Shown here: in pieces, positions 4,513 through 39,300 of the stretch
Numbering within the stretch: the first letter of the stretch is position 1
Layout: each line of letters begins with the position of its first letter
From: a virus
IMG/VR virus record: IMGVR_UViG_3300031886_000011
Location: 1-41,546 of that record
DNA: 41,546 nucleotides
Reading direction: 5' to 3' (one strand)
Program-made: the position numbers and the translations under genes
The notes under the pieces: generated by a model
Databases searched by the model: none
Told to the model about the DNA's origin: nothing
What the model saw: the letters and a program-made list of their open reading frames with translations, nothing else

Positions 4513-4521
4513 AATTATTTC

Positions 4522-8224: not shown

Positions 8225-9247
8225 TCAATATACCAAAACTACCTTGCCGTCGCTGCCAGAGCCGGCTGCCACGACCGGCCACGAAATGCCTCCCCGTCCA
8301 CCACCGCCAGCATCAAGTATGCCTACTGACCGACCGCCATCACCTGATCTATTGCTATCGCCAGCGTCAGTCGTCGCAATGAACCCCACCTTTCCAGCAA
8401 CTCCAGACTGACCAAATTTAGTGCTTGGAGCGGAACCGCTAGCACCAGCGGCACCGTCACCAGTCCATGCACCCGTGCCTCCGACACCATAATCAGCATT
8501 TACCAGCGTTGAGCCGCCCTCTTTAAAATAAGAAGGTTCTCCGTCGTTTTGTTCATTGTAGGCAGCAGCCGCGCCTCCTGCCCCAACACCGACCGTGTAA
8601 TCAGTCGCGGGAGTTACAGTGAGCAACTCTTGGGCGAAAGAGCCACTGCCACCGCCACCGCCGAAGAATGGTCCACCTGACCCTGCACATTGAGCACCAC
8701 CACCGCCGCTGCCCGTTGCATAAACCCAAACCTTGGTCACACCGGCAGGGCACGTCCAAGTAGTGTCCCCCGTGGATGTGAATTCCACGACGTTTGTGAA
8801 TCCCGCTGCCGCACCGTCGCTTGCAGCAGTAATACGCCCCTGCTGATCCACGGTTATGTTTGCATTGGTGTAGGCATCCGGAGTCACCGCTGTATCCGCC
8901 AGCTTGGCTGCCGTTACATTATCATCAGCAATCTTAACCGTTGTAACTGCATCAGCCTCAATTTCAGCAATTGCAATCGTTCCGCTCGCAGCAGCAGTAA
9001 TCCTGCCCTGAGCGTCAACTGTAATATCAGCCGTGCTATAGGCTCCAGCAGTTACCGCAGTATTTGCCAGCTTATCAACCGTTACCGCATCATCAGCAAT
9101 CTTGACAGATGTGACAGCATCATCAGCCAACTCGGTTGACCCGATTACACCAGCGTTGATTGTTGCACTGTCAATAAATGCATTTAACTTGGTATGATCT
9201 ACGGTTTCCCCGTCAACCCATGTCCGCCCTTTGGTAATGTCCGGCAT
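8225..9247 (-). CDS. Glycine-rich tail fibre/tip protein, 340 aa
   Basis: AGGAG lies seven bases before the ATG. After a short head (T-W-V-D-G-E-T-V-D-H-T-K-L-N, a common fibre start) comes a duplicated unit: each copy has DAVT-VKIADD-VT, KLA-TAVT and ITVD-QGRITAA, in residues ~40-95 and ~97-145, the usual shaft repeats of phage fibres. From ~150 a tip domain begins with T-W-T-C-P-A-G-V-T-K-V-W-V, followed by long Gly runs (residues ~180-330) and a final G-K-V-V-L-V-Y. Gly-rich tips of this type occur in receptor-binding proteins of several phages. Host receptor contact is inferred. Confidence 0.75.
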   Translation of the reverse strand: MPDITKGRTWVDGETVDHTKLNAFIDSATINAGVIGSTELADDAVTSVKIADDAVTVDKLANTAVTAGAYSTADITVDAQGRITAAASGTIAIAEIEADAVTTVKIADDNVTAAKLADTAVTPDAYTNANITVDQQGRITAASDGAAAGFTNVVEFTSTGDTTWTCPAGVTKVWVYATGSGGGGAQCAGSGGPFFGGGGGSGSFAQELLTVTPATDYTVGVGAGGAAAAYNEQNDGEPSYFKEGGSTLVNADYGVGGTGAWTGDGAAGASGSAPSTKFGQSGVAGKVGFIATTDAGDSNRSGDGGRSVGILDAGGGGRGGISWPVVAAGSGSDGKVVLVY

Positions 9248-9250
9248 TTT

Positions 9251-9442
9251 CTACTCCTTTTTCTTGGCTAAGGCAGACCAAATCACACCAGCAATGGTGA
9301 TGACGGCACCAATAGCCATTTCTAGTTCAGCTTCGCCTAAGATGCCCTTGGTTACAAGTGCGCCACCTCCGGCAGTTAATAAATGTCTAACGATACCGTT
9401 AAGCACCGTGTCCTGCGTCTTAGTTAATTTCTTAGTTGTCAT
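9251..9442 (-). CDS. Putative holin, 63 aa
   Basis: A small protein with a Lys/Thr N-terminus, a helix with I-V-R-H-L-L-T-A-G-G-G-A-L-V (residues ~18-31), a membrane-like helix A-I-G-A-V-I-T-I-A-G-V-I-W-S (residues ~43-56) and a charged K-K-K-E tail. The order RH-x-LT-x-x-GG ... G-V-x-WS-x-x-x-K resembles the small Pam3-gp28-type putative holins. The start overlaps the stop of a 37-residue gene as TAATG. It would form lesions in the inner membrane at lysis. No endolysin gene is recognised beside it; a peptidoglycan hydrolase could be hidden in the giant protein. Confidence 0.6.
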   Translation of the reverse strand: MTTKKLTKTQDTVLNGIVRHLLTAGGGALVTKGILGEAELEMAIGAVITIAGVIWSALAKKKE

Positions 9443-9555
9443 TATATGCTTCCCTTCTTTTTCCCTTTCTTGCCCTGATCTTCCTTCTTATTCTTGGCTA
9501 TCCTTGCCTTGGCGGCTTTCCCGGTTTCCCATGAGTATTTTTCTTTTCTTGGCAT
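9442..9555 (-). CDS. Small basic protein, 37 aa
   Basis: The frame starts at ATG 9555 with AGGAG seven bases upstream and ends with TAA at 9444-9442, sharing a base with the start of the putative holin. Its start lies inside the 3' end of the 80-residue gene at 9498-9740. The product is extremely basic, with about 17 Lys/Arg in 37 residues (M-P-R-K-E-K-Y-S-W at the start, K-K-G-K-K-K-G near the end). No domain is recognised. The strong ribosome site and the TAATG junction argue for translation; it may mainly couple holin translation to the upstream gene. Confidence 0.6.
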   Translation of the reverse strand: MPRKEKYSWETGKAAKARIAKNKKEDQGKKGKKKGSI

Positions 9556-9740
9556 TTTTTCTCCTTTGTTTGGGGTGTATCCCTCTCATAAAATGAGAGA
9601 ATCTTTATTCCCGTCCAGATAATAGTTACAACTAAAAGAACAATTTTCAAGATAATCTCTAAATCTGAAAGCGTAGTAACCCCAAGGACAGTTCCATTTA
9701 CTCCCAAGGTTTTCGCAAGTTCTGTTCCCGTTTCGTTCAT
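9498..9740 (-). CDS. Small membrane protein, 80 aa, possible second holin/lysis protein
   Basis: The start overlaps the previous stop as ATGA. Residues ~28-48 (I-I-L-K-I-V-L-L-V-V-T-I-I-W-T) are a clear single membrane helix. The N-terminus is neutral; the C-terminal ~28 residues are Lys/Gln/Pro rich and should face the cytoplasm. It lies between a conserved virion-associated protein and the putative holin, in the place of a lysis cassette. Its last 58 bases overlap the 37-residue gene in another frame. It could be a holin, antiholin or pinholin-like regulator; the sequence does not decide. Confidence 0.55.
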   Translation of the reverse strand: MNETGTELAKTLGVNGTVLGVTTLSDLEIILKIVLLVVTIIWTGIKILSFYERDTPQTKEKKCQEKKNTHGKPGKPPRQG

Positions 9741-10186
9741 TCGCTTGGCATCTCCACTTCATCCCATGTCTGGTCGCTCTCGTTCCATTGATAAAATGCC
9801 TTAGGAACCCCCTCCTCATTCATCTCTACCTCTGGAGGAGGTGTTGGGGGAACCCAATAGCAGGTATCCTCATCCAAACTCCAGCTAGGGAAGGGTTGGG
9901 GCAAATAAAATGCATCACGATCTTCATCGTAGATGTATCCTATTCCTGCATAATTCACTCTGAATGGAACCCCATCATCCTCTTCTCGTGTCTCAGGGTT
10001 ATAGTGCTTGCCGCCGTGAGTGTTGTAGCTGGTTCTTTTCCACAAGGACTGACTGTCTCCCCCCGAATTCAATAAAGCTGAACCAAGCTCTTCAGACTCA
10101 TTTCCATCGGCATCAGTAATGTTGTCAGTAGCCACCGCGACAACGTTCACAACCACGCCTTCTTCAATTTTTGCAAAGTATGACAT
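9737..10186 (-). CDS. Conserved phage tail-associated protein, 149 aa
   Basis: The protein has the pattern Y-F-A-K-I-E ... V-V-N-V-V-A-V near the start, W-K-R-T-S-Y-N-T ... G-K-H-Y in the middle, then F-R-V-N-Y-A-G-I-G-Y-I-Y-D and P-F-P-S-W-S-L-D-E ... C-Y-W-V-P-P. From family knowledge this is a small protein found widely in marine and freshwater phages beside tail fibre genes; its role is unknown, and structural or fibre-related is the usual guess. The acidic, Trp-rich C-terminus (residues ~105-149) resembles fibre-associated carbohydrate-contacting segments. It is four bases downstream of the Gly-rich fibre gene. Confidence 0.65.
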   Translation of the reverse strand: MSYFAKIEEGVVVNVVAVATDNITDADGNESEELGSALLNSGGDSQSLWKRTSYNTHGGKHYNPETREEDDGVPFRVNYAGIGYIYDEDRDAFYLPQPFPSWSLDEDTCYWVPPTPPPEVEMNEEGVPKAFYQWNESDQTWDEVEMPSE

Positions 10187-18026: not shown

Positions 18027-19857
18027 TTTGCGCCTCCGCATCCTGCCTGCCCTGCAGAAGTCCGCCAGCAGCTTCCGCAATCTGCTTGCGCAGTTGACCA
18101 GCCGCAGACGCATCCTCCTGAGAGTAAGCATTCAGCAATTCGTTTAGTCTCTGAACAATTAGTGCGGATGTGCGTTCCTCAATTGGAATACCATCCGCCA
18201 TCTTCTGCCTTACGTACTGAATCAGTACACCAATCCTTGTCGGATATTCCTCGCCACCCCTTACGGGAACCGGGAACCCTGCCTCCATGATTGAAATATT
18301 ATTAGCCTCCTCAAGCTGCTCCTGCATCTGCCGTATCCCCGGCTCCATCCACATCCTCTTCACAAGGCTTGGATCATCCAGCTCAAGGATTGACCTATCC
18401 AGCTCACCCTGATTGACATATGGCGAACCAACAAACAATTGTTTGCGAGTCATTGCCTGCTGCAGTTTCCTCATGCGGTTCTGACTCTCCGGGCCGCCCT
18501 TCGGCTCAATGACGTAATCCCCGGAGAAGGCATCCGCCTCCACCTCATAAGCATCATCCATATACCGGAACATCAAGTCCTTGGACTTATACTGTAGAAG
18601 AAGGCTCCACGCCTGACGGTATAGGCTTCCGAGTGACATGCGAAAAATCTTGGCCCTTAGGTCATTAGACTCAGCCATTAATCCAGTTATGGCATTGACC
18701 TCCGTTGCTGTCCTTCTGTCACTGCCCTGACCGTATAGCTGATTGGAACCGAAGTCGGGCATCCCGATTCTTTGTTCCGCAATTTGACGGGTAGCATTTA
18801 TTTCCGTATCAAAGCTGACGGGGGGTTGTGCCTGCTGTACGGGAGCAATGCCTATAGGAAGAATTTGTGCGGGGGCCATTCGTATATTGGCTGAGTTGGG
18901 AATCTCCCTTTCCGCCCGGAACATCGGACGGTTGTAAAGAGTCATGGCATCCTGCTTGTCATTCCAAAGTTTACATAGTGATGCTTCATGCGGGGCAATG
19001 ATTTCGCACACCCCACGAGGAGAGTACCAACCCTTGTCCTTTACTTCATACGCAAAATCAACAAATGGAAACTTGCCGTGCTTATAGTCCAGCTCCATCT
19101 GTGGTCGTAAATCCAGATCGGGCACCTCCGGGCAGAATGTACTTATCTTAATCTTCTTACCGTCCCGCTCATACACTTCCCATACAATGATCTTGTCCTC
19201 ATCAGAGTGGTAGGTAATCCCTTCGCGACGGAAGACAACCTGCTCCTTCTTATCAATATTAGCCGACTGAGCCTTTTGGCCCATAAGTTCAGTAAGTACC
19301 CCCTCCTCAAAGAACGGACTGTTCTTAAACGAGTCATGAGTGTATTGCATCACCTGAACAAGTCTGTCCGCATCCTGAAGCTTCTTCGTGGAGTTAGGAA
19401 CCAAAACCATCATCGGATCAATTGAATCAAACTGAACCTGCTTCTTGTCGCTGTCCCAATAAACCTTCATAACGGAACGACCCGCCATCAGGCAATGGTC
19501 GATCCAGCTAAGGGCTTCTGTCATGAAGTTGGTGTTCTCCTTCATCTGATAGTCAAACCATTGTTCCGCCATCATGGTGAGTCCCCCGTCCTGCTGACGC
19601 ATAGGCACAAAGGACGACAGAACGTCCATGCCCGAAATCTGCATAAAGTAAAATGGCTTGAGCCTCTCTATAATCGAGTCAGCCAAGGGGAAGTGAAGGT
19701 CGCTCGCATTAGGCCAAGGCTTGTTCTTTCTCCTTAACCCGTGGTGGCGCATCTCGTACCAGATGCTCTGGCGATGCTCCCAGCGAGTCCTATCCTTTAT
19801 ATCCTTGTGTACCTTGTCTACCAGCCCCAGCCGCTCATTGTCATACCAATCATTCAT
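17986..19857 (-). CDS. Portal protein, 623 aa
   Basis: The arrangement is typical of P22-like portals: W-P-N-A-S-D-L-H-F-P-L-A-D-S-I-I-E-R-L-K-P near residues 48-68, a G-R-S-V-M-K-V-Y-W-D clip-side strand (~125-135), P-M-M-V-L-V-P at ~147, then a long wing, and a Gln/Glu-rich C-terminal tail (~560-623) that may form a barrel or be disordered. It lies between the terminase block and the scaffold/capsid genes. Twelve copies should form the packaging vertex. The 3' end overlaps the HNH gene and the 5' end overlaps the lipoprotein gene by eight bases. Confidence 0.85.
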   Translation of the reverse strand: MNDWYDNERLGLVDKVHKDIKDRTRWEHRQSIWYEMRHHGLRRKNKPWPNASDLHFPLADSIIERLKPFYFMQISGMDVLSSFVPMRQQDGGLTMMAEQWFDYQMKENTNFMTEALSWIDHCLMAGRSVMKVYWDSDKKQVQFDSIDPMMVLVPNSTKKLQDADRLVQVMQYTHDSFKNSPFFEEGVLTELMGQKAQSANIDKKEQVVFRREGITYHSDEDKIIVWEVYERDGKKIKISTFCPEVPDLDLRPQMELDYKHGKFPFVDFAYEVKDKGWYSPRGVCEIIAPHEASLCKLWNDKQDAMTLYNRPMFRAEREIPNSANIRMAPAQILPIGIAPVQQAQPPVSFDTEINATRQIAEQRIGMPDFGSNQLYGQGSDRRTATEVNAITGLMAESNDLRAKIFRMSLGSLYRQAWSLLLQYKSKDLMFRYMDDAYEVEADAFSGDYVIEPKGGPESQNRMRKLQQAMTRKQLFVGSPYVNQGELDRSILELDDPSLVKRMWMEPGIRQMQEQLEEANNISIMEAGFPVPVRGGEEYPTRIGVLIQYVRQKMADGIPIEERTSALIVQRLNELLNAYSQEDASAAGQLRKQIAEAAGGLLQGRQDAEAQNVPEQSRSQEAVQ

Positions 19858-20077
19858 CGTGTGCCCTTATTATGTACTCCAAGTCGTTTATTGAATCCAA
19901 GGCTTCCTTGGCCCATCTCTTTATGTTTCCATCAGCCTCCTTGACATCAGTAAACTCAGGCATCTCCATGAGACGCTTGACGTTCCCCTCAGGAAGTCGG
20001 GTGATTGGCAGCGGGTCAATGCTTCGACAGCTAATCGTCCCCAAGCTCACTGTCAATAATATCAGAAGTTTTCTCAT
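19850..20077 (-). CDS. Lipoprotein, candidate o-spanin (Rz1-like), 75 aa
   Basis: I start at ATG 20077. The N-terminus M-R-K-L-L-I-L-L-T-V-S-L-G-T-I-S-C is a lipoprotein signal with a lipobox-like T-I-S-C, giving a mature chain of ~59 residues beginning at Cys17. The mature part has P-L-P-I-T-R-L-P-E near the start and then a charged helix. The first 47 bases overlap, out of frame, the 3' end of the gene for a small membrane protein (20031-20192). Such an inner-membrane/lipoprotein overlapping pair is the classical Rz/Rz1 spanin layout, and T7 keeps its pair next to the large terminase. It would fuse inner and outer membranes at lysis. Confidence 0.6.
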   Translation of the reverse strand: MRKLLILLTVSLGTISCRSIDPLPITRLPEGNVKRLMEMPEFTDVKEADGNIKRWAKEALDSINDLEYIIRAHDE

Positions 20078-20192
20078 GCAAGTCTGCTGCACTCTGCTCC
20101 TTCTTTTCCTTCTTAGTCGCTGCCCTATTTTGCAGCCACCACAGCAATATGGCGACTCCACTCGCAACCAAACCTATAATTGATTCTGCCAT
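20031..20192 (-). CDS. Small inner-membrane protein, candidate i-spanin, 53 aa
   Basis: The frame runs from ATG 20192 to TAG at 20033-20031. Residues ~4-20 (S-I-I-G-L-V-A-S-G-V-A-I-L-L-W-W-L) form a membrane helix, followed by a Lys/Glu-rich region (residues ~23-40) and an acidic end. The next gene, a lipoprotein, begins inside it in another frame. The topology and overlap fit an Rz-type i-spanin, but the periplasmic part is only ~30 residues, much shorter than lambda Rz, so the pair must reach across the periplasm mainly through the partner, or the assignment is wrong. Confidence 0.55.
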   Translation of the reverse strand: MAESIIGLVASGVAILLWWLQNRAATKKEKKEQSAADLHEKTSDIIDSELGDD

Positions 20193-20207: not shown

Positions 20208-20272
20208 GGTGTTGGGCTTTGTTTCAAGTCCCGCCAGAGACTAACGGAAGTCCGAGGTTCTCCCCCGACACC
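20208..20272 (+). ncRNA. Candidate structured RNA element between late genes
   Basis: A nine-pair stem joins 20208-20216 with 20264-20272 and encloses two smaller hairpins (GGGCTT with AAGTCC; GACT with AGTC). Two pairs are G-U only if the plus strand is transcribed; on the minus strand they become A-C mismatches, so the fold favours plus-strand RNA, antisense to the surrounding late genes. A second option pairs AAGGTGT (20206) with ACACCTT (20282). It is not a canonical tRNA. Lies 20 bases before the pentamer element. Confidence 0.35.
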
Positions 20273-20291
20273 ATACGCCCCACACCTTAAA

Positions 20292-20365
20292 TTCTCCGGT
20301 TTCCTCCGTTTCCTCCATTTTTCTCACGCAAGAGTAGAATAGAGTAAACTAGATTAGAATAGATT
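20292..20365. repeat. Pentamer element, copy A (seven AGART-like units)
   Basis: TTCTCCGG and further C-rich pieces lead to CTCACGCA, then seven five-base units at 20331-20365: AGAGT, AGAAT, AGAGT, AAACT, AGATT, AGAAT, AGATT. The same layout recurs at 24964-25028 with cleaner units. The last unit runs into the stop codon of the gene at 20364-20627. No perfect DnaA box lies next to this copy. Likely a protein-binding or replication element. Confidence 0.6.
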
Positions 20366-20627
20366 ATTTCTCCCTGAATCCGAATTTCCATAATAAGCCA
20401 GCAATGTTGGTCGCAGCAGTGTCTACCCATGCCTCAGTAGCATTGGGGTCTTCAGCATGTAATGACTCGTGAATGATAACATCCAGCTTCCGCTTGCCTC
20501 TGAGCTTTGGTGAAATAGTAATACTTCTTTCGGCTTTCTCATCGCAGTCGGAATCCGGAAAAGTGCATAGCCCTTCTATCTCGTCAGTGTAAACATTGTA
20601 TGTTCCGGTGCTGAATTTATGCGTCAT
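20364..20627 (-). CDS. Small HExxH metallopeptidase-like protein, 87 aa
   Basis: GGAGGAG precedes the chosen ATG at 20627, which follows the upstream stop (20631-20629). An earlier in-frame ATG at 20681 would overlap that gene. The protein has C-T-F-P-D-S-D-C, then L-D-V-I-I-H-E-S-L-H-A (residues ~52-62) and a downstream acidic residue in E-A-W-V-D-T-A-A, followed by L-L-W-K-F-G-F. HExxH with a nearby Glu or Asp is the zinc site of zincin peptidases. Small proteins of this kind are common in phages near terminase genes; their substrate is unknown. The fold could also be a SprT-like remnant. Confidence 0.6.
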   Translation of the reverse strand: MTHKFSTGTYNVYTDEIEGLCTFPDSDCDEKAERSITISPKLRGKRKLDVIIHESLHAEDPNATEAWVDTAATNIAGLLWKFGFREK

Positions 20628-20628
20628 G

Positions 20629-20814
20629 TCACTCCTCCAAGTGTACAAGTACCCAAGCCATCCCATCTCCGTCAAGGTCATTCATGCTGGCTGCCTCAAG
20701 CAGCTCATCATACTTGCCCTCAAAAATGCTATTCTTCTCCTTGTAGTAGTAGCTAGTAAGAAATAGGCACCCAATCAGGGAAGCTACCGATGCCCTTAAT
20801 AACGAATCCTTCAT
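20629..20814 (-). CDS. Small membrane-anchored protein, 61 aa
   Basis: Residues ~7-22 (R-A-S-V-A-S-L-I-G-C-L-F-L-T-S-Y) form one membrane helix or uncleaved signal, followed by Y-Y-K-E-K and an acidic region with D-L-D-G-D-G (residues ~45-51). That last motif resembles a calcium-binding loop but is too short to call. No clear ribosome site; the start lies 36 bases after the terminase stop. It belongs to the terminase-portal interval that also holds the spanin-like pair, so a part in lysis is conceivable but unproven. Confidence 0.5.
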   Translation of the reverse strand: MKDSLLRASVASLIGCLFLTSYYYKEKNSIFEGKYDELLEAASMNDLDGDGMAWVLVHLEE

Positions 20815-22334: not shown

Positions 22335-22781
22335 CTACTCCCGATTTTCCGTGGTGGGTTGATTATACCCTAGGCCGCCTCCGGGGGGTGTACCCCGTTC
22401 CTCTTTTCCGGCTGATAAGGCTGCGAGGAGGGCAGGAGAGACCGTCGTCTGTGTGACATCCGCTGTGATCTCACGTTTGTCTGCCTTATTCCAATGACCG
22501 AAGCGACGTTCAAGGAGTGCTATGGCAATTTTGCCGTCGCGTTGGGCGTGTCGAGTGGCATGATGCAACATTTGATGCTCATGATGTGCGACTGCCTCAT
22601 CCACGGCCATTCGGAGCATCGGATATTTACGCATCCAACCTTCGAGCGTTGGCAATGGAATGCGCAGGAATTTGGCGGCGGATGTGATGTTGAGACCATC
22701 GCGGAGCAGGGCTGAAAGCTCCCCGATCTGATCGTCTGTCATGGGTGGTTTTCGCGTAGATTTGGACTGTTTCAGTGTCAT
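22335..22781 (-). CDS. Terminase small subunit-like DNA-binding protein, 148 aa
   Basis: GGAGG lies eight bases before the ATG at 22781. Residues ~15-54 contain a helix-turn-helix pattern: D-Q-I-G-E-L-S-A-L-L-R-D-G-L ... S-A-A-K-F-L-R-I-P-L-P-T-L-E-G-W. The remainder has a His-rich helix (H-H-E-H-Q-M-L-H-H, ~66-74), a basic helix F-G-H-W-N-K-A-D-K-R-E-I, and a Gly/Pro-rich tail. HTH plus oligomerising helices, directly before terL, is the usual form of TerS, which recognises the packaging start and loads TerL. First gene of the leftward block. Confidence 0.75.
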   Translation of the reverse strand: MTLKQSKSTRKPPMTDDQIGELSALLRDGLNITSAAKFLRIPLPTLEGWMRKYPMLRMAVDEAVAHHEHQMLHHATRHAQRDGKIAIALLERRFGHWNKADKREITADVTQTTVSPALLAALSAGKEERGTPPGGGLGYNQPTTENRE

Positions 22782-24516: not shown

Positions 24517-24846
24517 ATGCAAATACCAGATGAAATCTTCAGGGATACTGAAGAAGGAAATGATATGAGCCACATTGAGATACGAACTCCGTTTAAGATT
24601 AATCCTGAAGGGAGAGAGATTGAGCTTGGAATTCGTGTGGATAACGGGCGAGATATGTACGTGTGCGTCTATGTAGATGGAAAGATGGACTTAGAGATAG
24701 ACGACATCGGCTGGTGCTACGTGTCATGCATCGACGTGCTGCATGACTACACTCAATGGGCTATCAGCTTGGCGAAGCTTGACGTGGCATGTGGAGGCGT
24801 GCCGTACCACGAGATAGCGGACAAGGTTACCCGGAGATTGAAATGA
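24517..24846 (+). CDS. Unknown early protein, 109 aa
   Basis: AAAGGAATAATA stands before the ATG. The protein is acidic, with beta-like stretches I-E-L-G-I-R-V-D-N-G-R-D-M-Y-V-C-V-Y-V-D-G-K-M-D (residues ~38-62) and a helix with C-I-D-V-L-H-D-Y-T-Q-W-A (~72-83). Cysteines at ~53, 69, 72 and 93 do not form an obvious metal site. No family recognised. Its stop overlaps the next start as ATGA. Confidence 0.6.
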   Translation: MQIPDEIFRDTEEGNDMSHIEIRTPFKINPEGREIELGIRVDNGRDMYVCVYVDGKMDLEIDDIGWCYVSCIDVLHDYTQWAISLAKLDVACGGVPYHEIADKVTRRLK

Positions 24847-24932
24847 ACCAATACCACAAAATCATGGTGTGGCTCTGCGTAGCCATAGTCTTTCATCTAA
24901 TCATACATCTATATTCTGCTTTTCTCAGTTAA
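24843..24932 (+). CDS. Membrane microprotein, 29 aa
   Basis: Starts in an ATGA overlap with the preceding stop and ends with TAA at 24930. Nearly the whole chain is a membrane helix (I-M-V-W-L-C-V-A-I-V-F-H-L-I-I-H-L-Y). It is one of four single-helix microproteins in the early block. Translational coupling supports expression. Confidence 0.45.
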   Translation: MNQYHKIMVWLCVAIVFHLIIHLYSAFLS

Positions 24933-24940
24933 AATAGGGG

Positions 24941-25028
24941 TTATTCACAGACATAAGTACGTTTTCTCCGGTTTTCTCCGGAAACCTCACGTAAGAATAG
25001 AATAGAATAGAATAGAGTAGAATAGAAT
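24941..25028 (+). other. Candidate replication origin (DnaA box plus pentamer repeat copy B)
   Basis: TTATTCACA at 24941-24949 is a perfect match to the bacterial DnaA box TTATNCACA. It is followed by TTCTCCGG/TTTTCTCCGG (24964-24981), CTCACGTA (24986-24993) and seven perfect-register pentamers, AGAAT four times, AGAGT, then AGAAT twice (24994-25028), ending in an AT-only stretch. Box, GC-rich spacer and AT-rich direct repeats is the layout of a bacterial-type unwinding element. The phage also encodes a DnaA domain IV protein (32001-32456). A promoter or operator role is the alternative; the element sits 25 bases before the next start codon. Confidence 0.55.
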
Positions 25029-25053
25029 ATATATAAGGAAAGAAGGAATAAAA

Positions 25054-28887: not shown

Positions 28888-29370
28888 ATGAAAAGGTTTA
28901 GGGTATCGGAAGAAACCCTTGCCGAAGCCAAGCGGAGAGCAGAGGCATTGCCGCTGCTTAACAACTCGATAAGGGCTGGAAGGGGAGCAATTGTCGGGTA
29001 CTTGGGGGAAGCATTGGTAAGTAAAATATTAAGAGGAGAAATCAAGGATACATTCGATTATGACATCATCTACGGAGACGGAATAAAGGTGGATGTAAAG
29101 ACAAAGCAAAGAACTGTGCCGCCATCATGGTACTACAGTTGCACGGTTGCAAACTTCAACACCAAGCAGAAATGCGATGAGTATGCTTTTGCGAGCGTGC
29201 TCAAGGATCACACCTACGCATGGTATCTTGGTAAGGTAAGAAGGGATGTCTTCTATGAGAAGGCAGTCTTCTATAAGGCGGGACAGCTAGACCCCAATTC
29301 ACCCCCACACAGTCCGTTCCGATTCAGGGCCGACTGTTATAATATGAACATAATGTACCTATCACAATGA
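28888..29370 (+). CDS. PD-(D/E)xK-fold nuclease-like protein, 160 aa
   Basis: GGGGGT precedes the ATG. After a basic helical N-terminus (K-R-R-A-E-A) comes G-Y-L-G-E-A-L-V (residues ~37-44), a possible helix with the catalytic Glu, then F-D-Y-D-I-I-Y-G-D-G-I-K-V-D-V-K-T-K (residues ~56-73). Asp then D-V-K is the D...D-x-K core of restriction-like nucleases. It continues with V-A-N-F-N-T-K-Q-K-C-D-E-Y-A-F-A-S-V-L. Many phages carry such a protein; it may trim recombination intermediates or degrade host DNA. Its stop overlaps the next start. Confidence 0.65.
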   Translation: MKRFRVSEETLAEAKRRAEALPLLNNSIRAGRGAIVGYLGEALVSKILRGEIKDTFDYDIIYGDGIKVDVKTKQRTVPPSWYYSCTVANFNTKQKCDEYAFASVLKDHTYAWYLGKVRRDVFYEKAVFYKAGQLDPNSPPHSPFRFRADCYNMNIMYLSQ

Positions 29371-29543
29371 GTAAGGGAGACGACAACAAGAAACTAAGAA
29401 CGTATCGGTTTAGCCAGACAACTCTGGATAGGCTGGAGGAACTAGCTCTAGCCACGGGCATTAGCCGGACGGCTGTGCTTGAACAACTGATACATGCAGC
29501 GGAGGTAGATGATGAACAGCAGGGAGAAGGGCAAGAGGGGTGA
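29367..29543 (+). CDS. Ribbon-helix-helix (CopG/Arc-type) regulator, 58 aa
   Basis: ATGA overlap with the preceding gene; TGA at 29541. The core is a strand K-L-R-T-Y-R-F-S (residues ~9-16), a helix T-T-L-D-R-L-E-E-L-A-L-A-T (~18-30) and a second helix S-R-T-A-V-L-E-Q-L-I-H-A-A (~33-45), with G-I between: the standard CopG/Arc layout. It would bind DNA as a dimer through the strand and could regulate early genes or bind the pentamer repeats. Its last 32 bases overlap the nuclease gene that follows. Confidence 0.65.
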   Translation: MSKGDDNKKLRTYRFSQTTLDRLEELALATGISRTAVLEQLIHAAEVDDEQQGEGQEG

Positions 29544-29895
29544 GCGTCTGTGGCGTGACTTCCTTAAAAGTTATGGATTGGAAGCCAGACGAGGGCAGCA
29601 ATATTCAGGTGGAGATGATTCACCTGACGTTGTGTGCAAGGAGATGGATGAATGGTTCCACACTGAGGTGAAGTTTGTTGAGAAGCTGAACCTATATGAA
29701 GCACTCCAACAATCTCAAAGGGATTGCGGTGATTGGAGTGAGGAGCGAATCCCAATAGTGGCACATAAGAAATCAAGACAATCATGGATGGTCACAATGG
29801 ATGCGAATAGTTTTATGCAGATGGTATCCTGCTTACTTTCACGAGCGGAAAGCACCGTGATAACCAGACCCACAAAAAACGGGGTCGCAAAATAA
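29512..29895 (+). CDS. Holliday-junction resolvase-like PD-(D/E)xK protein, 127 aa
   Basis: GGAGG before two adjacent ATGs; the second (29512) has the better spacing. G-K-R-G-E-R-L-W-R-D-F-L (residues ~7-18) holds the first Glu, S-P-D-V-V (~36-40) the Asp, and H-T-E-V-K-F-V (~49-55) the E-V-K, together the E...D...ExK core of phage Hjc/RusA-unrelated resolvases and VRR-type nucleases. A later I-P-I-V-A-H-K-K-S-R-Q-S-W-M-V-T fits the family's last strands. It should cut branched DNA made during replication and recombination with the neighbouring Erf protein. Confidence 0.7.
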   Translation: MNSREKGKRGERLWRDFLKSYGLEARRGQQYSGGDDSPDVVCKEMDEWFHTEVKFVEKLNLYEALQQSQRDCGDWSEERIPIVAHKKSRQSWMVTMDANSFMQMVSCLLSRAESTVITRPTKNGVAK

Positions 29896-29901
29896 GGAAA
29901 C

Positions 29902-30465
29902 ATGAAAGAAAAACCTACAAAAGAAGAGGAAGCAAATCAGAAGCCTAATGGTTCTGATGAGCTTATAAGGACAGAGAGTATAATCAAGGTATCAGCCGCC
30001 ATGTGCAAGGCATGGGGCGAGCTGGAATCTGCCAAGGAGAATGCTGACAACCCGTACTTCAAGAGCAAGTACGCACCATTGAAGGAGGTTATAAGGGCAG
30101 CAAAAGCTGTGCTACCAAAGCACGGACTATGCGCTCTTCAACCTACCACCGTGGTGGATGGACAGAAGTACGTGATGACACTCATACTTCATACGTCAGG
30201 TCAATACATTGGCGGGTTGTATCCCATTACTCCCGGCAAGGCTGACCCGCAGGGAGTCGGAAGCGCAGTTACATACTCGCGTCGGTATGGACTATCCTCC
30301 ATGCTGGGCATCGCAAGTGATGATGACGATGACGGAGAGGGTTCTATGGAAAGGTACGAGAAGAAATCCTTCGCGGATAACTCACCCCAAAGAGCCTATA
30401 TGAACAGAAACAAGAACCCAGATGATTTTCTCGGCAAATCCGTCGAGAATGCTAAGGGTGCCTAA
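29902..30465 (+). CDS. erf: Erf-family single-strand annealing protein, 187 aa
   Basis: AAGGAAAC precedes the ATG. The Erf domain is clear: N-P-Y-F-K-S-K-Y-A-P-L-K-E-V-I (residues ~48-62), L-P-K-H-G-L-C-A-L-Q-P (~71-81), Y-V-M-T-L-I-L-H-T-S-G (~92-102), D-P-Q-G-V-G-S-A-V-T-Y-S-R-R-Y-G-L (~114-131) and G-I-A-S-D-D-D-D-D-G-E-G (~136-147). Erf proteins coat and anneal single strands in phage recombination and can circularise genomes. It lies beside a resolvase-like and an exonuclease gene, forming a recombination module. Confidence 0.88.
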   Translation: MKEKPTKEEEANQKPNGSDELIRTESIIKVSAAMCKAWGELESAKENADNPYFKSKYAPLKEVIRAAKAVLPKHGLCALQPTTVVDGQKYVMTLILHTSGQYIGGLYPITPGKADPQGVGSAVTYSRRYGLSSMLGIASDDDDDGEGSMERYEKKSFADNSPQRAYMNRNKNPDDFLGKSVENAKGA

Positions 30466-30476
30466 TGGTGGAAACC

Positions 30477-30512
30477 GGGTGCGCCTCGTGGGTCATAGCA
30501 CGGGGCGCATCC
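30477..30512 (+). other. Fourteen-pair hairpin between erf and the exonuclease
   Basis: GGGTGCGCCTCGTG (30477-30490) pairs along its whole length with 30499-30512 through an eight-base loop; two of the pairs are G-U on the plus strand. No T-run follows, so it is more likely an RNA processing, stabilising or partial-stop element than a full terminator. Confidence 0.6.
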
Positions 30513-30529
30513 AAACCAAAGGAACAATC

Positions 30530-30739
30530 ATGGGAATAACTACATCAGACGCATTCTTTGATCCAAAGCCTGCGGAGGAAGTGAAACATCATCCTACTCA
30601 TCCGCCATCATCCTTTCCTGCAATGAAAGCCTGCCCACGCTATGGGCCGGACAACAAGGGGAGCGATGCTGCGAGCAGGGGGACAGAACTACATGAGCAA
30701 CTCGCTCAGGTTCTGGAGAAACACAATGAAACGACATAA
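30530..30739 (+). CDS. Cas4/RecB-like exonuclease, N-terminal half, 69 aa
   Basis: AAAGGAAC precedes the ATG at 30530. Residues ~22-60 read H-P-T-H-P-P-S-S-F-P-A-M-K-A-C-P-R-Y ... A-A-S-R-G-T-E-L-H-E-Q-L-A, the 'S-x-x-x-x-x-C-P' and 'R-G-T-x-x-H' motifs that open Cas4/RecB-type nucleases. The catalytic Asp and D-x-K are missing because TAA at 30737 and a second TAA at 30746 end the frame. The same frame reopens with the catalytic half at 30818. Either the enzyme works from two chains, or the gene is split or broken by inserted DNA. Confidence 0.6.
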   Translation: MGITTSDAFFDPKPAEEVKHHPTHPPSSFPAMKACPRYGPDNKGSDAASRGTELHEQLAQVLEKHNETT

Positions 30740-30827
30740 GAAAATTAAGCTATACCTAGTGATAGCGGGATCAGCGGCTTGGCTGTATCTCCTTTACTAC
30801 ATAGCTGGAAAGCCAATATGGAAATAG
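30726..30827 (+). CDS. Membrane microprotein inserted in the exonuclease gene, 33 aa
   Basis: ATG 30726 begins 14 bases before the stop of the N-terminal half and the frame ends with TAG at 30825, ten bases after the catalytic half starts. Basic start M-K-R-H-K-K-I-K, then one membrane helix (L-Y-L-V-I-A-G-S-A-A-W-L-Y-L-L-Y-Y-I-A-G), then K-P-I-W-K. The two small overlaps are what translational coupling would need. Function unknown. Confidence 0.5.
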   Translation: MKRHKKIKLYLVIAGSAAWLYLLYYIAGKPIWK

Positions 30828-31654
30828 AACCAGAGGTAATATGGGCGGCCGACTACATCAAGGAAGTAACCAACGGCAAGCCTATAGAGATAGAGACAAA
30901 GGTGGAAGTTAAACGTGGATCAGATGACCTGACATTCGGACATGCTGATGCCTACTGCGATGGTAACCTATTTGACCTCAAGACGGGTCAACACAAGCGT
31001 GATTACGGTCCCCAGATGGCCGTGTACGGGCTTGGAATGATGCAAAGGTATAATCTGCCCAGCATCACAGTCCATCTGCTGTATTCGGCATTCAGGGAAG
31101 TGGACTCATATACCATTACAAGAGAGGAAGCTGAGGCTGAAGTGTACGGGATTGTTGATACGACACAGAATCCCAAAGCATCCCCAAAGCCATGCTCATA
31201 CTGTTCTTGGTGTAAGCATAAGGAGAACTGTAGCGCACTCTCAGGATTGGCGACTACATGCAGTGATGGTCTTGACTTACCCAAGTCAATGGACCTGAGC
31301 AAGGTAACTGACCCGTCAGAGATGGGTAAGTTTAAGGCGATGGCCGACTCCCTGAAGATATGGATTGATGCAGTCAATGCCAAGTCGAAGGAGTTCGATG
31401 ACATCGTTGGATACTACAAGGTCACAAGGAAGGGTAACAAGTCAGTCAAGGATGTATGGGAAGCAGTCAGCGACATAGACATGGAACCCAAGGAGTTTAT
31501 ATCATGTTGCACTGTCTCGTGGCCCAAGCTGGTCAGCAAGTACAGTGAAGTATGGGGTATTTCTAAAGAGCAGGCAGAGGAAAAGTTGTCCGTCCTTCTG
31601 TCAGCTCAGATAAAAGAGGGACACGAAACCAAATACTGGAGGAAAAATGGCTGA
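30818..31654 (+). CDS. Cas4/RecB-like exonuclease, catalytic half, 278 aa
   Basis: I start at ATG 30818, where GGAAAG gives a modest ribosome site. Residues ~32-55 carry T-F-G-H-A-D-A-Y-C-D-G-N-L-F-D-L-K-T-G-Q, the Asp and D-x-K of the PD-(D/E)xK core, followed by Q-M-A-V-Y-G-L-G-M, the usual QxxxY motif. C-S-Y-C-S-W-C ... C (residues ~127-139) gives four Cys like the iron-sulphur or zinc cluster of Cas4-type nucleases. The C-terminal ~120 residues are helical. It should degrade DNA ends to feed annealing by Erf. The N-terminal motifs lie in a separate frame-compatible ORF at 30530-30739. Confidence 0.7.
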   Translation: MEIEPEVIWAADYIKEVTNGKPIEIETKVEVKRGSDDLTFGHADAYCDGNLFDLKTGQHKRDYGPQMAVYGLGMMQRYNLPSITVHLLYSAFREVDSYTITREEAEAEVYGIVDTTQNPKASPKPCSYCSWCKHKENCSALSGLATTCSDGLDLPKSMDLSKVTDPSEMGKFKAMADSLKIWIDAVNAKSKEFDDIVGYYKVTRKGNKSVKDVWEAVSDIDMEPKEFISCCTVSWPKLVSKYSEVWGISKEQAEEKLSVLLSAQIKEGHETKYWRKNG

Positions 31655-32000: not shown

Positions 32001-32456
32001 ATGAGATCAAGAAAAGGAAAGCTCGAAAGAGCTATAATCAAACCTGAAAAGGAAATATTGGACAGAGCACTCAATGTCGTGACTGAGTGGTCCGGACTTA
32101 AACCTATGGACATTCTCGGAAGACGAAGGTTCCAGCAGATAGTGGATGCCAGACACTTCTGGTGGATGCTTTGCCTGCGGACGGGAGAGTTCACCTTGAG
32201 CAGACTTGGTGAGCTGGTCGGGCGTGACCACGGTTCAGTGATACACGCCAGAGGCAGGCATGAGAACATGCTTGAGGTTGGTCAACAAATATCTGCCGAC
32301 TTGGCTCGCGCCAACTATAGGAAGAAGTATAATAACGGCACCGTGCGTTACTCAGAAAGCTGGGAGCATCTAGTTACTGAATACAGCAAGGCTAAGTTGC
32401 TTGACACGGAGAAAGGCAGAACCCATGACGAGGAACACACCCACAGTTTGGTATAA
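32001..32456 (+). CDS. DnaA domain IV-like DNA-binding protein, 151 aa
   Basis: AAGGAGTAAG precedes the ATG. Residues ~22-90 match the DNA-binding domain IV of DnaA: V-V-T-E-W-S-G-L-K-P-M-D-I-L-G-R-R-R-F, V-D-A-R-H-F-W-W-M-L-C-L-R and the signature G-R-D-H-G-S-V-I-H-A (residues 74-83; bacterial form G-R-D-H-T-T-V-x-H-A). The AAA+ ATPase and domain I are absent; the remaining ~60 residues are a charged helical tail. It should bind DnaA boxes, either to recruit host DnaA to the phage origin or to compete with it. The next gene, overlapping by 32 bases, is a probable replication initiator. Confidence 0.82.
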   Translation: MRSRKGKLERAIIKPEKEILDRALNVVTEWSGLKPMDILGRRRFQQIVDARHFWWMLCLRTGEFTLSRLGELVGRDHGSVIHARGRHENMLEVGQQISADLARANYRKKYNNGTVRYSESWEHLVTEYSKAKLLDTEKGRTHDEEHTHSLV

Positions 32457-33246
32457 GAATTGTCTATACCAGATGGAAGACCAAGAGATGGTCTGGCTTC
32501 AATGTCAAGATAGTGGGTCGTGTGCTGTATGGGAGTGGCTTAAAGCTGATTGCTGGAAGCGTGGCTCCGCACAGATACGATCCTTGTCCGACATAGAGAA
32601 GGATGGGATTGCCCGGATGCTTGGCATTAACGTAAAGCGTTTCGATAATGTCATATCCATGATGGTTGATGACCTGAAATGGATTGACTCGGACATGAAG
32701 ATACGTAGCTGGGAGAAATGGCAGTCCATCTCCGCGAAGGAGGCAGATGCTGACAGACAGTACGTCAAGTATTGGAAGGATAAGGCAAGGGAGGAAGGTG
32801 ACCCCGAACTCCCGCCTGAACTTCAGGATGATAAATTCCGTATAGCATGGGAGGAGTACCTGAAGTACCGGACAGAGAACAGATGGAAACCCTTAAGGGC
32901 TATGTCAATTGAACGCAAATGGCGGGAGTTGGCTGGCTGGGGTTTGGATGGAGCAATAGAATCCATTGAGCAAACCATAAGGAACGGTTGGCAGGGATTG
33001 TTCGTCCCGCAATCAAGGGTAACCAAGGACAGCAAGGACGGCACAGTCGGCAAGAAGCCATCATTCTGGGAACTGAAGCAGAAGATAACAATGATAGAAG
33101 AAGAAATGAAAGACTTGCGCGGTCGCTACTTCAGTGGACCGCCATCTAGTACATGGGAGAAAAACCAGAAAGGCCAAGAGGCTAAGTCAAGATGGCGTGA
33201 ACTGAAACAAAAGGTAGAAAGACTAAAGTCAGAGTGCATTAACTAA
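32425..33246 (+). CDS. Probable phage replication initiator / helicase-loader-like protein, 273 aa
   Basis: I start at ATG 32425 (AAAGG upstream) inside the DnaA-like gene; a TTG at 32401 in frame is possible. The N-terminal ~95 residues have W-Y-K-N-C-L-Y, then a helical region like a winged-helix (D-I-E-K-D-G-I-A-R-M-L-G-I-N-V-K-R-F-D). Residues ~130-195 read F-R-I-A-W-E-E-Y-L-K-Y-R ... I-E-Q-T-I-R-N-G-W-Q-G-L-F, a phrase common at the end of DnaD/lambda-O-type phage replication proteins. The C-terminus is a coiled coil. It should bind the origin and bring the host helicase; no helicase is encoded. Confidence 0.6.
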   Translation: MTRNTPTVWYKNCLYQMEDQEMVWLQCQDSGSCAVWEWLKADCWKRGSAQIRSLSDIEKDGIARMLGINVKRFDNVISMMVDDLKWIDSDMKIRSWEKWQSISAKEADADRQYVKYWKDKAREEGDPELPPELQDDKFRIAWEEYLKYRTENRWKPLRAMSIERKWRELAGWGLDGAIESIEQTIRNGWQGLFVPQSRVTKDSKDGTVGKKPSFWELKQKITMIEEEMKDLRGRYFSGPPSSTWEKNQKGQEAKSRWRELKQKVERLKSECIN

Positions 33247-33368: not shown

Positions 33369-36300
33369 CTACCTAAACAGTTCCATCAGTCTAGCCTTGT
33401 CCAGCCTATACATGTGTGCCTCTACATCCTTGGTTAAAATTGGACCACCCTTCTTTTCCGGATTAGCCATGTATGCCCAATAAGCATCCCTTTCCTCTCT
33501 ATCCATCCTGCCTAAAGCACTCATCAGATACCTTGCCCTAGTCACGGTATCTTTACTCTTCAGAAATTTCTCATCATTGCTTAAATCCAATTCTTTAAAC
33601 TTCTTAATTATGGCTTTGCTTATCAAGTCCCTCTCGTAGGTATCCTCTATATTGCTAATAAGTAAGTTTGCCTTCCTTGCTCGATCTATGGGGTCAAGAC
33701 CCCTTGTTTCCTTCATGAACCCATTAACAATTCTACTTCTATTTAACGATTCCAGATCAGACTGCTGCTGAAACTTATGCATCTCCTCAATGTTCTCGCT
33801 TGGGGCAATAAATTGTGAGCGGAACAACCTCTTGCCAATGGCAGACAGAACGGGTGTTGACCTTAGGGCTGAACGATCCTTGTCTTCCGGGGCTGGAATG
33901 AATTGCGATACCAGCCCAGCAGAGAGTCCGTTGACACCGTGTTGCCATAACAGTGGTGACCCACCAATGGTCCGCCCTATCCATCTGTAGAACTCCGGTG
34001 TGCTATCATAGTATTGCTCCACATCAGGCACCCCCTTCAGGTCTCTGCGAACAATGTCTGCGTGGTAGTGCATGTTTCTACCCGTTGCTAGTTCCAATGG
34101 GGTCTTGAGTATCGGGTTAAGACCGGACCCTATACTCTCAATTCTTTCCAGTATATTCAGGTCAAGCCCACCTTCCTTGGTGGAAATGTTTATTGGAGAC
34201 ATACCCTCAGCAAGGTTGGCAACCAAATGCTGAACAGCTTTCGGGTCTTTCGCATAAGCCAAGTCGAGAAGATGCTCGATTGACCGTGAGAATAGTCCGG
34301 CAGTTTCGCGTCTTGGTATCCTTATATAGTCTCTGGTCTTCTCCTCAGTGTAAGGATTGATGAAGAAACTATCCATCGGGATATGATAATAATGATCTAA
34401 GTCCTTCTGGCTAACCTTCCTTATATCTTCCTCATATTCTTCCTCGTGATTCTTTTTCCACAGCAGGATGGTTGGTATGCCAACAAATATGGACATCCTT
34501 GTCCATGCCTTCATTGCTTCCGCAGGGTCTTTTGCTGGGTTCAATCTCTGGATGTCAGATTCAACTCCCTGAACACGGGCATTGTAGAACATGAATATCA
34601 GGTTGAGATACTGCTTCTCGGTCATCTTACCCATCCGGGCAAAGTCCGGTGAACCCGCATACCTGCGAACCTCAAGGGCAAGGTTGCTCATCCTCTTCCG
34701 TATCTCCTGCTCAATGGCAGCCTTATCAGGACCAGCCTCAAGCTTGTCGGACTTCTCCCTTAACTCAGTAACCCCCTCAAAGTCCAGCCCACGCTGGAAC
34801 CCCTGAAGCTTCGCTACATATTCAAAAAGTTTACCAATTGTGTTCAGCTCGCTAAGACCTTTCGATACCTTTGCAAAGAACTTATCTTTCTGCCCACGGA
34901 ATCCGGTGCGAAGCTCAGTCTTGATTTCGTTTGGAGTGCCTTGCTCAAGGAAGTCAGCAATGGTTGCCCCAGCAGCCCTGCTGTTAATAAAGTCATTCGC
35001 CAACAGTTCCATGTCAGCGTCAAACCTTGGGCTTATCTTGCTGAAGATAGCATGGGAAGTCCTTGGATAGTTTATCTTAAAGCTGGCTGCAAATGCGCGA
35101 AGCATCGCAGACATATAACCCAAGCCCAATGTCTTTGTGTCCCTGAGGCCGGGAGCATACTTGCTTAACGTAAGCAGCCTTTGCTGGTCAACTACTAGGT
35201 TGCCAATCTGGAAGAATATGTTCGCACCAACTGCTCCCATCTTAAAGAGTCCCCCGAACTTGGTCATCAGCTTAACCATCGCATGGTCACTGCGACTGTC
35301 ATACTTGAGTGCATCAGCAATGCTTTCCTCAACCAAGAAGCTGCGCTTCAATCCGTTCTCGTAAAGCTCAACCTTCCCGTAGCCTTTAGGGATGACCTTC
35401 TTCCCGGTAATAATCTGACCCTTCAGGCGTGCAATCTCCTGATGAAGTATTGCAATTTCTGAATCCTTTATTCCCGGCAGGAGTTCTTCATCCGCCTCTA
35501 TCTCTTTTATCCTATTCTTGTTTACCTCTATAAAGCTCTCGCGGTTTTCGTTCCAAGCCTGAATTCCGCCCTCAGCAGGTTCAGCCTCATTGGAGTAAGG
35601 GGTGATATACTTGCCTTCAGTATCCAAGTCAGCAAGCCCCATGATTAACTTCCCGAACTTGTTGTGTTCAGCGAAATGTATGGAGTCGTGAATCTTCTGC
35701 TGCGCGGCAGCCACCAGCGGCATGATGGTGAAGTCTTCATTGGTTATTCCCGTTACATAATTGAGAAGGTTTTCGTCATTGTTATTGAAGTATTCGGTTA
35801 TAAAGAATGGAGCATAGAAGTCGCTAGACCTCTTGATGTGTGCATATGTGACGGGATCTACCCTCCCAGCCTCAACCAGATGCCATAGGGCTTCGTCAAG
35901 GTGCTTGGCGTATATCTTCGACGCATCCTCATGTCTCTTGGTCTGCTTGGAGCCAACCTTCTTCTCTAGAATCTGGGACAATTTTGTAATCTTATGAACA
36001 TCAAATCCGGCAATCGACTTGTTGTTGACTGCAAGTGTTATGTATTCCATTCGCTCCTGACTATCCAGCCTGCCCCATCCGCTTTCAGTTAACCCTTCGA
36101 TCTTGCCGTCTGCGGTGAGTGTTACCCCCATCTTTGCCCTAAGGGCTACCAGCCTGCTGTCTATCTCCTTCTGCTTTAACAGCCTTGATTGGGCTGACAA
36201 AAGGAATAGGTAATGCTCAAAGTCCTTCACCCTCTGGTTAACACTGTCCTTATTCAGCCCGAACCAAGGGCCACGGAACCATTTATCGGGAGCAATGACC

Positions 36301-39300
36301 TTGACTATATCCTCAAAGAAATTCTTCATTGTTTCATTGGCTATCTGGGTTGCACCAGCACGAAGGTCAAATTCCTTCTCAATGTTCTCCTGCGAAACTT
36401 CCGGGGTAGCAGTCTTGCCTTCCTGAATATTCGCTGCCATAGCTCCAATCGTTCTGCCCTTGCTGATTGTTGCAGCGTAAGTCTCATTCCAGATACGTCT
36501 CCATTTCTTTATATTAAATAATCCTTCTTCCCCTTCCCTGACTTCTTCTAATGGAAGTTCCTGAACCCGCTCACCCTCCTTGAGTAGCTTTTGCTCACTC
36601 TCCGTTAAGGCTTCAGGTGGAGTCTCAGGAACCTCAGCCTCCTTCACCCCTTCTGCGGAGTCCTTCTTCTTGGAGTAGATTGGGTCTTCCAAAATGTTAC
36701 CCGCTGGCTGTGCCCAGTCTTCGTCTTCAGGCATCACGGTTGTGTCCACCACTAAGAGGTTTTCATGGATTGAGTAGGCGGTGGAATCATGTATTTCCTT
36801 GTCATACCTGCCCTCTTTGATTAAGGACAGCCATCCACGCATGATGCGTTGCCCCGTATCAGTGATAGCCGACGGATCAGAAGCTCCTTCGGAGTATGCT
36901 TCTACTAACGCATGTGTCTCCGAGATGGCATGGTCAAGTGCCGTCAGGCTTCCAACATTAATTTTCAATTTGGTCAAGTATTCCTTCATCAAGGATACGA
37001 ATGCGTCCCAAGCAGTCGTTAGTTTTCCGTCCCACTTAATTCGTGTTGCATTAAGGAACTGACGGAACTCAGCGTTCTGCATAGTGGCAGCAGCCAACTC
37101 GTGAACATTTTGAAGTTCGTAATTGAATCCCACGCCGTGGTTCTCAGTTTCTGATCCAGCGTATGCGTAATCCACGGCCCCATCCGTAAATTCAACCCTA
37201 GTTCCTGCTGCTGCTTCCCTTAGGACATTCAAGAACTTGCTGTATCTCTTGAAGGCGGCTTTCGTCTCATGCCTTGAAAATTCTTGCCATTGCAGGGACT
37301 TAAACGTAATTGCGTGCCACATCTCGTGATTAAGGGCTTCATAGGCATCCAATACGTTCTGGTCGGGTTCAATTACAATTTGACCACGATCGTAATACCC
37401 CCTAGCACGAGATTGATTTTTACCTACAGTCATACCCTTCATGTCAAGAAAGTGAACCCTGATGTTCGCATCCTTCAACGCCTTAAGCAGTATCTTGTTC
37501 TGCTCAAATAGCCCCCTAAGGTTTGAGTCTTCAATCCCATCTTGCTTGAGTTCCCGATAAGCCATTTCCCTTAACGCTATCTCGGCTGACTCCAGATTAA
37601 GTGAACCATCCACATTCCCATCCCTTATCTCATCAGCAATAGTCCAACCCTGATAGACACCCCTGCTATCAAATTCTTTTTCAGTGAGAGTTCTCTTTAT
37701 CTTTATTATCTTTGAGTCGTCAGTCAGTCCCTCCGTGCTGTCATCTGCGATGGAGTCCCAATAGGCTCCCTTCCTCTTGCCCCTTGAGGCTCCCTTCTTC
37801 TTACCCCTTGACATTGCGATCCGTACGTCTTCCCTGCTAATGTCGTGACTCTTGGTTACACCATCCATGTAAACCTCAAGCTCATCACGAAGAGAAACCA
37901 TCAGGCTGGTCAGGTTGCTTTTAGAGAATGGATTAGGAGTCCCGAATTTTTCGCTCTCAAAGTATTCAGACTCAATGCCTCTATGCTTCGGAAAGTAACT
38001 CTCCATCGCTTCGTTGGCATCAAGCTTAATGTAATGGACGCCATGCTTATCTTGGCGTCTATTGTTATGTTCCCTTACTGCTTTCTTGACATCCTTCTCG
38101 ATGAGGTTTGTGTCATACCGTTTTCCCCTCTTTCCTTCTTCCTTTTTAATGCGCCTCAACCTAGCCCTTATTTCCATAATCGCACGCTCAACCTTATCCC
38201 TCTGTTCGCGAAGATTCTTAACATGCTCTTGAGTTACATCCGCCTGCTTCTCTACCGGAACATACTGATCTGCTCTGGCAAAGGGCTGTTTATGTATGTC
38301 CCGTGTAGCATAAATTCCCTTCTGTGCTGGTCCAGCATTGTCCGGCCCTTTGTATAAAGGTGGATGCTTCGACCCGATCTTCCTGCCCTTATCGGCGTCG
38401 AACCTTTCCCCATGAATCTCCATCCAATCATTGACCTCTGCCTCCGTCATTGGCCGCCACACAGCATTGGGGTCTTGTGGAGTCCATACGATACTTCTAC
38501 GAATTACCTTTCGTGGCCTGCTGCCAATAACCTTGCCGAACTTATCGTACGTAAGGATTATCTTCGGCTTTCCTTTCGGGGCATAAACCTCAAGCTCCGC
38601 TTCAAGGAGGCGCAACTCCCGGCTTAATGTCTTTTCCCTATCAACCAAGCTTCTGCTCTTTGCGTTTTGGGTTTCCTCCCTATAGGCAAAGTTGGTTGCG
38701 TGATCTACAAGTATGGAACTTATATCATGGTACAATGCTTCAGAAGAAGTGTCTGTATCTGCAAGCTTGCCCATATCGAGAGCTTTGGACCCAAGAACTA
38801 TATTCCTCACTCCATCCTCAAATCCGGAAAGTGCCCTCAGTAACCGAGCTTGAGCAACCATCTTGTTTATGATGTTGCTATCCTTGGATGCATTCGGTCT
38901 GGCATCCCAAATGGGATCAAGCTTCTGGTCTACAGCCTCAACCAAGCCTCCGGTGCTAGTCTCTTCATGAACCCTAGTCTGCCACCCCGTTCTTGTGCGA
39001 CTTTCAAACCTATCCAAGCCCAAGCCCTTACGCATGTTATCAATGAAACGATGCAACATTCTCCGGTATGCGACTTTGGTAAAGTTTAGCCCAGCCTCTG
39101 CCCCACCCTCTTCGTAAATTTCACCAAGTTCCACTCGAACATCTTGGTAGGCATCAGTAGCCCACTCCATTGCCATTCCTATATCCTTTGAAGCAGACTT
39201 CCGCATATAAAGGAACTGACCATCCTTATCATACATGGCAAGCTGGCTGAGTGAGCGATATGCCATGCTGATTGCGTTTCTCCTCAGCTTCTCAAGCCAA

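Follow-up and report, generated by a model that had tools for sequence, protein, structure and literature searches.

The window, by which we mean the whole stretch of viral DNA analysed here (41,546 nucleotides, IMG/VR record IMGVR_UViG_3300031886_000011), carries in its rightward early region a short composite of repeats, designated copy B. The following features lie at this locus.

24636 to 24644, minus strand: perfect DnaA box TTATCCACA, within the ORF 24517-24846
24844 to 24933, plus strand: short hydrophobic ORF of 29 amino acids (MNQYHKIMVWLCVAIVFHLIIHLYSAFLS), directly before copy B, within the ORF 24789-24932 and conserved in the relative L003
24941 to 24949, plus strand: perfect DnaA box TTATTCACA, with the CTCAC motif of copy B following 45 bp downstream
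24962 to 24990, plus strand: phased motifs of copy B, CTCC at 24966 and 24976 and CTCAC at 24986, in exact 10-bp register
24994 to 25028, plus strand: pentamer array of copy B, seven AGAAT units (one AGAGT), conserved among relatives
25029 to 25036, plus strand: A/T-only end of copy B, which together with the pentamers forms the weakest 60-bp duplex of the genome (0.00% of windows weaker)

The initial annotation had described a perfect DnaA box, the sequence CTCACGTA, seven in-register AGAAT pentamers and an AT-only stretch. All of these are present, with CTCACGTA at 24986-24993, AGAGT as the fifth pentamer and only A and T up to position 25036. The pentamer array goes beyond chance, since 12 near-matches to (AGAAT)3 occur in the window against 1.56 expected and none of 100 shuffles reached this number. 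The spacer between box and CTCACGTA had been taken to be GC-rich, but 16 of its 36 bases (24950-24985) are G or C (44%), which is below the window mean of about 48%. It contains the two CTCC motifs that are in register with CTCAC and had been overlooked. Likewise, the box was thought to be rare and the only one of its kind; however, the second perfect box lies nearby on the minus strand, and shuffled windows hold 1.23 such boxes on average, two or more being found in 32 of 100 shuffles.

When the window was searched with its own copy B region, a second copy of the whole composite (copy A) was found at about 20294-20367 on the plus strand. It lies past the terminase genes, which separate it from copy B, and between the ORFs 19850-20167 and 20364-20681, both on the minus strand.

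20208 to 20286, minus strand: conserved structured RNA element beside copy A, with covariation
20294 to 20327, plus strand: phased motifs of copy A, CTCC at 20294, 20304 and 20313 and CTCAC at 20323
20331 to 20367, plus strand: degenerate pentamer array of copy A, ending in ATTAT, at the stop codon of the ORF 20364-20681 (minus strand)

Both copies share a common layout, in which CTCC recurs every 10 bp (9-10 bp in copy A of the window), CTCAC follows one turn on, and about seven to nine AGAAT-like pentamers come next, followed by ATTAT or TATAT. In the consensus of the aligned copies, CTC is found at relative positions 2-3, 12, 22 and 32. The conserved feature is larger than a DnaA box with pentamers and consists of phased CTCC/CTCAC motifs, pentamers and an AT-rich end. 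The second copy changes a model with a single origin into a two-site system.

A search with a degenerate pattern revealed 24 stretches in about 20 IMG/VR viral contigs, and the element was absent from 257 Gb of bacterial and archaeal genomes searched with the same pattern. Nine records span both positions (the window, G003, G004, G015, G016, G017, G019, G021 and G022), each with exactly two copies in one orientation, 4.1-5.3 kb apart. With a leave-one-out weight matrix, that is, one built without the record under test, the two sites scored 67-115 bits in these nine records and the third best at most 0.3. Identical ends were observed in G019 (99 bases) and G022 (119 bases), as expected for circularly closed contigs. 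The window itself has a terminal direct repeat of 252 bp (1-252 and 41295-41546, 97% identical, with all seven mismatches between 107 and 125), which is either real or an assembly overlap with local errors.

Gene order is kept as well: portal, lipoprotein, copy A, F21, large terminase, small terminase and the early genes with copy B, and after it F14, RHH, PDDEXK, ERF, exonuclease, F16, DnaA_C, the O-like initiator and a giant LPD38 protein. Copies A and B point one way, although the flanking genes are on the plus strand at B and on the minus strand at A. No named phage relatives were found by DNA, and the nearest terminases are those of Akkermansia phages (39%). Relatives with a terminase of about 58% identity, such as G009 (58%, no element by weight matrix), encode a DnaA_C protein yet lack the element; hence, the presence of DnaA_C alone does not predict it. 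The RHH protein, the initiator and the element occur together, a pattern inseparable from shared ancestry.

Ranked by nearest-neighbour energies in nine out of nine records, the 60-bp window at the pentamers of copy B is the weakest or lies within 0.01% of the weakest. Copy A is among the weakest 0.01-0.6% of 60-bp windows in these records (0.11% weaker in the window). The low stability of copy B is the look expected of a DNA unwinding element, a look that AT-rich promoters share. In a tandem-repeat listing, A and B were the only arrays at the same place across the element-bearing records. In an iteron scan, which as a control recovered the four annotated iterons of lambda at the right base, the initiator genes and the F3 and F4 regions of eight records gave no array exceeding background. 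Thus, no conserved repeat arrays other than A and B were seen, and a lambda-type origin with iterons inside the initiator gene was discarded.

GC skew, also considered as a test for an origin, changes with gene direction and lends no support: the signal looked for near 25 kb did not appear, only the change of gene direction at about 22.8 kb being visible. The coding-sense GC3 skew of the minus-strand genes on either side of B is at odds with, or at best neutral to, the sign commonly associated with a bidirectional origin at this place; on one side, a single giant gene makes up most of the comparison.

At least 17 distinct phage sequences share the structured RNA next to copy A. Its 10-bp outer helix shows covariation, and the G-U pairs counted in this helix number 23 for the minus strand versus 1 for the plus strand. 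The GAGA loop of its hairpin can pair with an invariant TCTCT, likely forming a pseudoknot, and the element holds an invariant CTTGAAACA(A/G)AG. No Rfam family matched. The RNA sits in the leader of an operon of a small TM gene, the lipoprotein and the portal, and is plausibly a leader regulator.

Downstream of copy B, the window encodes a set of replication and recombination proteins.

29367 to 29543, plus strand: 58-amino-acid RHH (CopG-like) homologue, candidate binder of the phased repeats
29509 to 29895, plus strand: PDDEXK nuclease, weakly Hjc-like (PDDEXK_15 1.5e-5, just under the cut-off; Hjc 0.086)
29902 to 30465, plus strand: ERF single-strand annealing protein
30779 to 31654, plus strand: exonuclease (phrog_69, DUF2800)
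32001 to 32456, plus strand: DnaA domain IV protein (Bac_DnaA_C; Pfam PF08299, 40.4 bits; PDB 1j1v, E 2.6e-5), conserved in relatives
32401 to 33246, plus strand: O-like replication initiator or replisome organizer (phrog_678 'replication initiation O-like', best 6.3e-6)

The earlier statement that the phage has no visible polymerase or helicase, but a DnaA domain IV protein and a probable initiator, agrees with the protein scans: no replicative helicase (DnaB), primase or polymerase matched among the scanned proteins, a set that covers part of the small ORFs, and no full-length DnaA was found in the phage. The DnaA domain IV protein is present in all records holding that region. When the relatives are aligned, its RDH signature has an invariant D and H, and nine out of ten sequences have Gly at the next position, where E. 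coli DnaA has Thr. In E. coli DnaA this Thr contacts the DnaA box; the exchange for Gly may reflect an altered specificity of the phage protein. The initiator likewise occurs in all records holding the region, and nine out of nine family members match phrog_678; its AlphaFold model (mean pLDDT 71) gave no significant PDB match. The 58-amino-acid protein has relatives in every record holding the region, four of which match Pfam RHH_1. RHH proteins commonly bind helically phased repeats.

The exonuclease family is represented by one ORF in G003 and L003 and by a pair of neighbouring ORFs in the window, G004, G015, G016, G019, G021 and G022; those of the window (30422-30739 and 30779-31654) are either two genes or the result of a frameshift. 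The conserved F21 protein between copy A and the terminase (20364-20681, minus strand) has no Pfam match and contains IIHESLHAE, an HExxH motif of the kind typical for metalloproteases. The protein with the LPD38 domain comprises 2694 amino acids in the window (33369-41453, minus strand) and up to 3627 in relatives.

The site had initially been read as a single origin, at which host DnaA would bind TTATTCACA and load DnaB, with the pentamers acting as unwinding element. The origin-like part of this model stands, in view of the conservation, the weak duplex and the initiator genes, and the comparison with relatives bore out the pentamers; the part centred on the DnaA box does not. The aligned box is found in the window, L003 and L004 only, with one mismatch in L013 (TTACTCACA), and is absent in L007/G003, G019, G021, G015, G016, L062, L065 and further relatives in which the composite is retained. 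Consequently, the box does not belong to the conserved core. In favour of DnaA are the short distance between box and CTCAC and the enrichment of boxes near copy B: in 13 records (360 kb), six out of ten perfect boxes lie within 350 bp of copy B, a radius picked after the hits were seen, compared to 0.30 expected from local shuffles. Some are common by descent (the window and L003 share one, G004 and G017 another), and with each shared box counted once, four out of eight lie near copy B (binomial, about 4e-5). This clustering suggests that host DnaA may assist. However, no perfect box was found near copy A in the 13 records, each genome has a second copy that lacks a box, and the units of 5 bp do not correspond to the 3-nt DnaA-trios, a reading that was rejected. 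Judging from the sequences, DnaA boxes are attracted to copy B yet lie outside the conserved element as an optional neighbour, and a single DnaA-driven origin appears quite improbable.

Unlikely, too, is a role in transcription control, in which CTCC and CTCAC would be operators (e.g. for the RHH protein, encoded beside the recombination genes) and the TAGAAT repeats with the AT-rich DNA a promoter, B serving early and A late genes. Such a role would fit the position of B, which in the window, G003 and L003 is closely followed by an ORF, as well as the resemblance of TAGAAT to TATAAT, since CTCAC and TAGAAT of copy B are readable as weak -35 and -10 boxes; AT-rich intergenic DNA is common in promoters as well. 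It is difficult to reconcile with the single orientation of both copies between genes of opposite direction, with the variable gap of about 20 to about 280 nt between B and the start codon that follows, and with the early plus-strand genes that exist upstream of B too. Very improbable is a site for DNA packaging or partition, with the small terminase (22335-22781) or the RHH protein as its binder. Phased repeats are used in partition sites to which RHH proteins bind, and the two copies flank the terminase genes; but two sites 4-5 kb apart are unusual for pac, no ParA or ParM matched among the scanned proteins, and neither function accounts for B being the weakest duplex of each genome.

We consider it probable that A and B constitute a paired replication-origin element, akin to oriL/oriR of SPP1 or ori/crr of P4, that uses host DnaB and polymerase. 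The element has two copies, is conserved and uniformly oriented, has a low duplex stability and is accompanied by initiator and recombination genes; we infer from this a binder, its binding and melting of the DNA, origin activity and a division of labour between A and B. The CTCC/CTCAC motifs, phased with the helix, would be bound by a phage initiator. The O-like protein (32401-33246) is the most likely candidate, and either the DnaA domain IV protein (32001-32456) or the RHH protein (29367-29543) may take part. The bound initiator would melt the adjoining AGAAT/AT-rich array, and host DnaB, primase and polymerase would then be recruited. Copy B, with its early region, weakest duplex and nearby DnaA boxes, would be the likelier start site, and host DnaA may help in the box-bearing lineages. 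Copy A in the late region could be a second origin, a looping partner (similar to crr of P4) or an initiator-bound fork barrier. As a barrier it would feed the ERF/exonuclease/PDDEXK recombination set and lead to concatemers, as proposed for oriR of SPP1.

The Bacillus phage SPP1 has two origins composed of direct repeats and an AT-rich unwinding element (PMC6316719), and it has been proposed that forks stall at the initiator occupying its oriR, which would set off the synthesis of concatemers (PMC6316719, PMC3485210). Likened by description only, oriL and oriR resemble A and B as two distant sites of similar organisation, with repeats and unwinding element (PMC6316719, PMC3485210). SPP1 has a dedicated origin-binding replisome organizer, for which the O-like protein (so assigned by PHROGs in nine out of nine members) is the candidate counterpart here, and its genome encodes an exonuclease, an annealing protein and a Holliday junction resolvase, where we find an exonuclease, ERF and a PDDEXK nuclease. 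In contrast, oriL of SPP1 lies inside the initiator gene, whereas the initiator genes here contain no iteron array; the SPP1 sites are about 13 kb apart, compared to 4.1-5.3 kb; and SPP1 encodes its own helicase and loader, none of which were found among the proteins scanned here. The spacing is similar to that of P4, in which crr (4291-4590) and ori (9086-9809, GenBank annotation) are about 4.5-5 kb apart. However, P4 supplies an alpha primase of its own for replication (annotated 'DNA primase'), whereas no primase or helicase matched among the proteins scanned here. The type 1 repeats of P4 are 8 nt long and occur in both orientations. The A/B system would work like those of SPP1 and P4, without being a member of either kind. 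By analogy, A and B as proposed would also resemble the lambda origin, where repeats are bound by an O-type initiator and host DnaB is recruited; the four iterons of lambda lie inside gene O, whereas the element described here is 7-12 kb from the initiator gene and has two copies. With bacterial oriC, the window shares a DnaA box near an AT-rich element and the coding capacity for DnaA domain IV. An oriC-like DnaA origin is nevertheless improbable, the box not being conserved at the site in relatives, the units being pentamers instead of DnaA-trios and a full-length DnaA not being found.

A more far-reaching proposal, which we regard as doubtful, is that of a new class of obligatorily paired phage origins, in which initiator-bound CTCC/CTCAC motifs, one to each helical turn, would act on a pentamer array that unwinds, the O-like initiator would work jointly with the stand-alone DnaA domain IV protein, and the late-operon copy by the structured RNA would be a theta-to-sigma switch. 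Origins of uncultured phages are seldom located, and this element can be scanned for from sequence alone. Strictly two-copy and strongly conserved, it would provide a predicted start site for a marine phage group whose replisome genes were looked for and not found, and it would be a natural setting to ask why some phages carry two initiator sites. Since the sites are paired and DnaA domain IV is a separate protein, a theta-to-sigma switch and the dependence on host DnaA are directly testable with purified parts.

The loose pattern TCTCC-N5-TCTCC-N5-ACTC also occurs in linkers of replication-initiator genes of the unrelated phages L139, L206 and L225. L139 has no protein similarity to this group, and its repeats lie in the linker of a replication initiation gene beside dnaB. 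Among 65 non-redundant ORFs covered by matches to the loose pattern, replication-initiation families were the most frequent (two members each); the linker matches account for 3 of the 65 ORFs, the first of them having been seen before the count was made, and include L225 through another family than L139 and L206. The parallel with the motifs of A and B is suggestive only. TCTCC repeats at 10-bp spacing, or (GGAGA)n, were observed in the replication-initiator genes of L139 (3699-3760), L206 (6483), L225 (minus strand) and L137 (11205, no PHROG match), encoding GEERSGEER-like linkers in L137, L206 and L225, and may possibly represent internal origins in these four phages.
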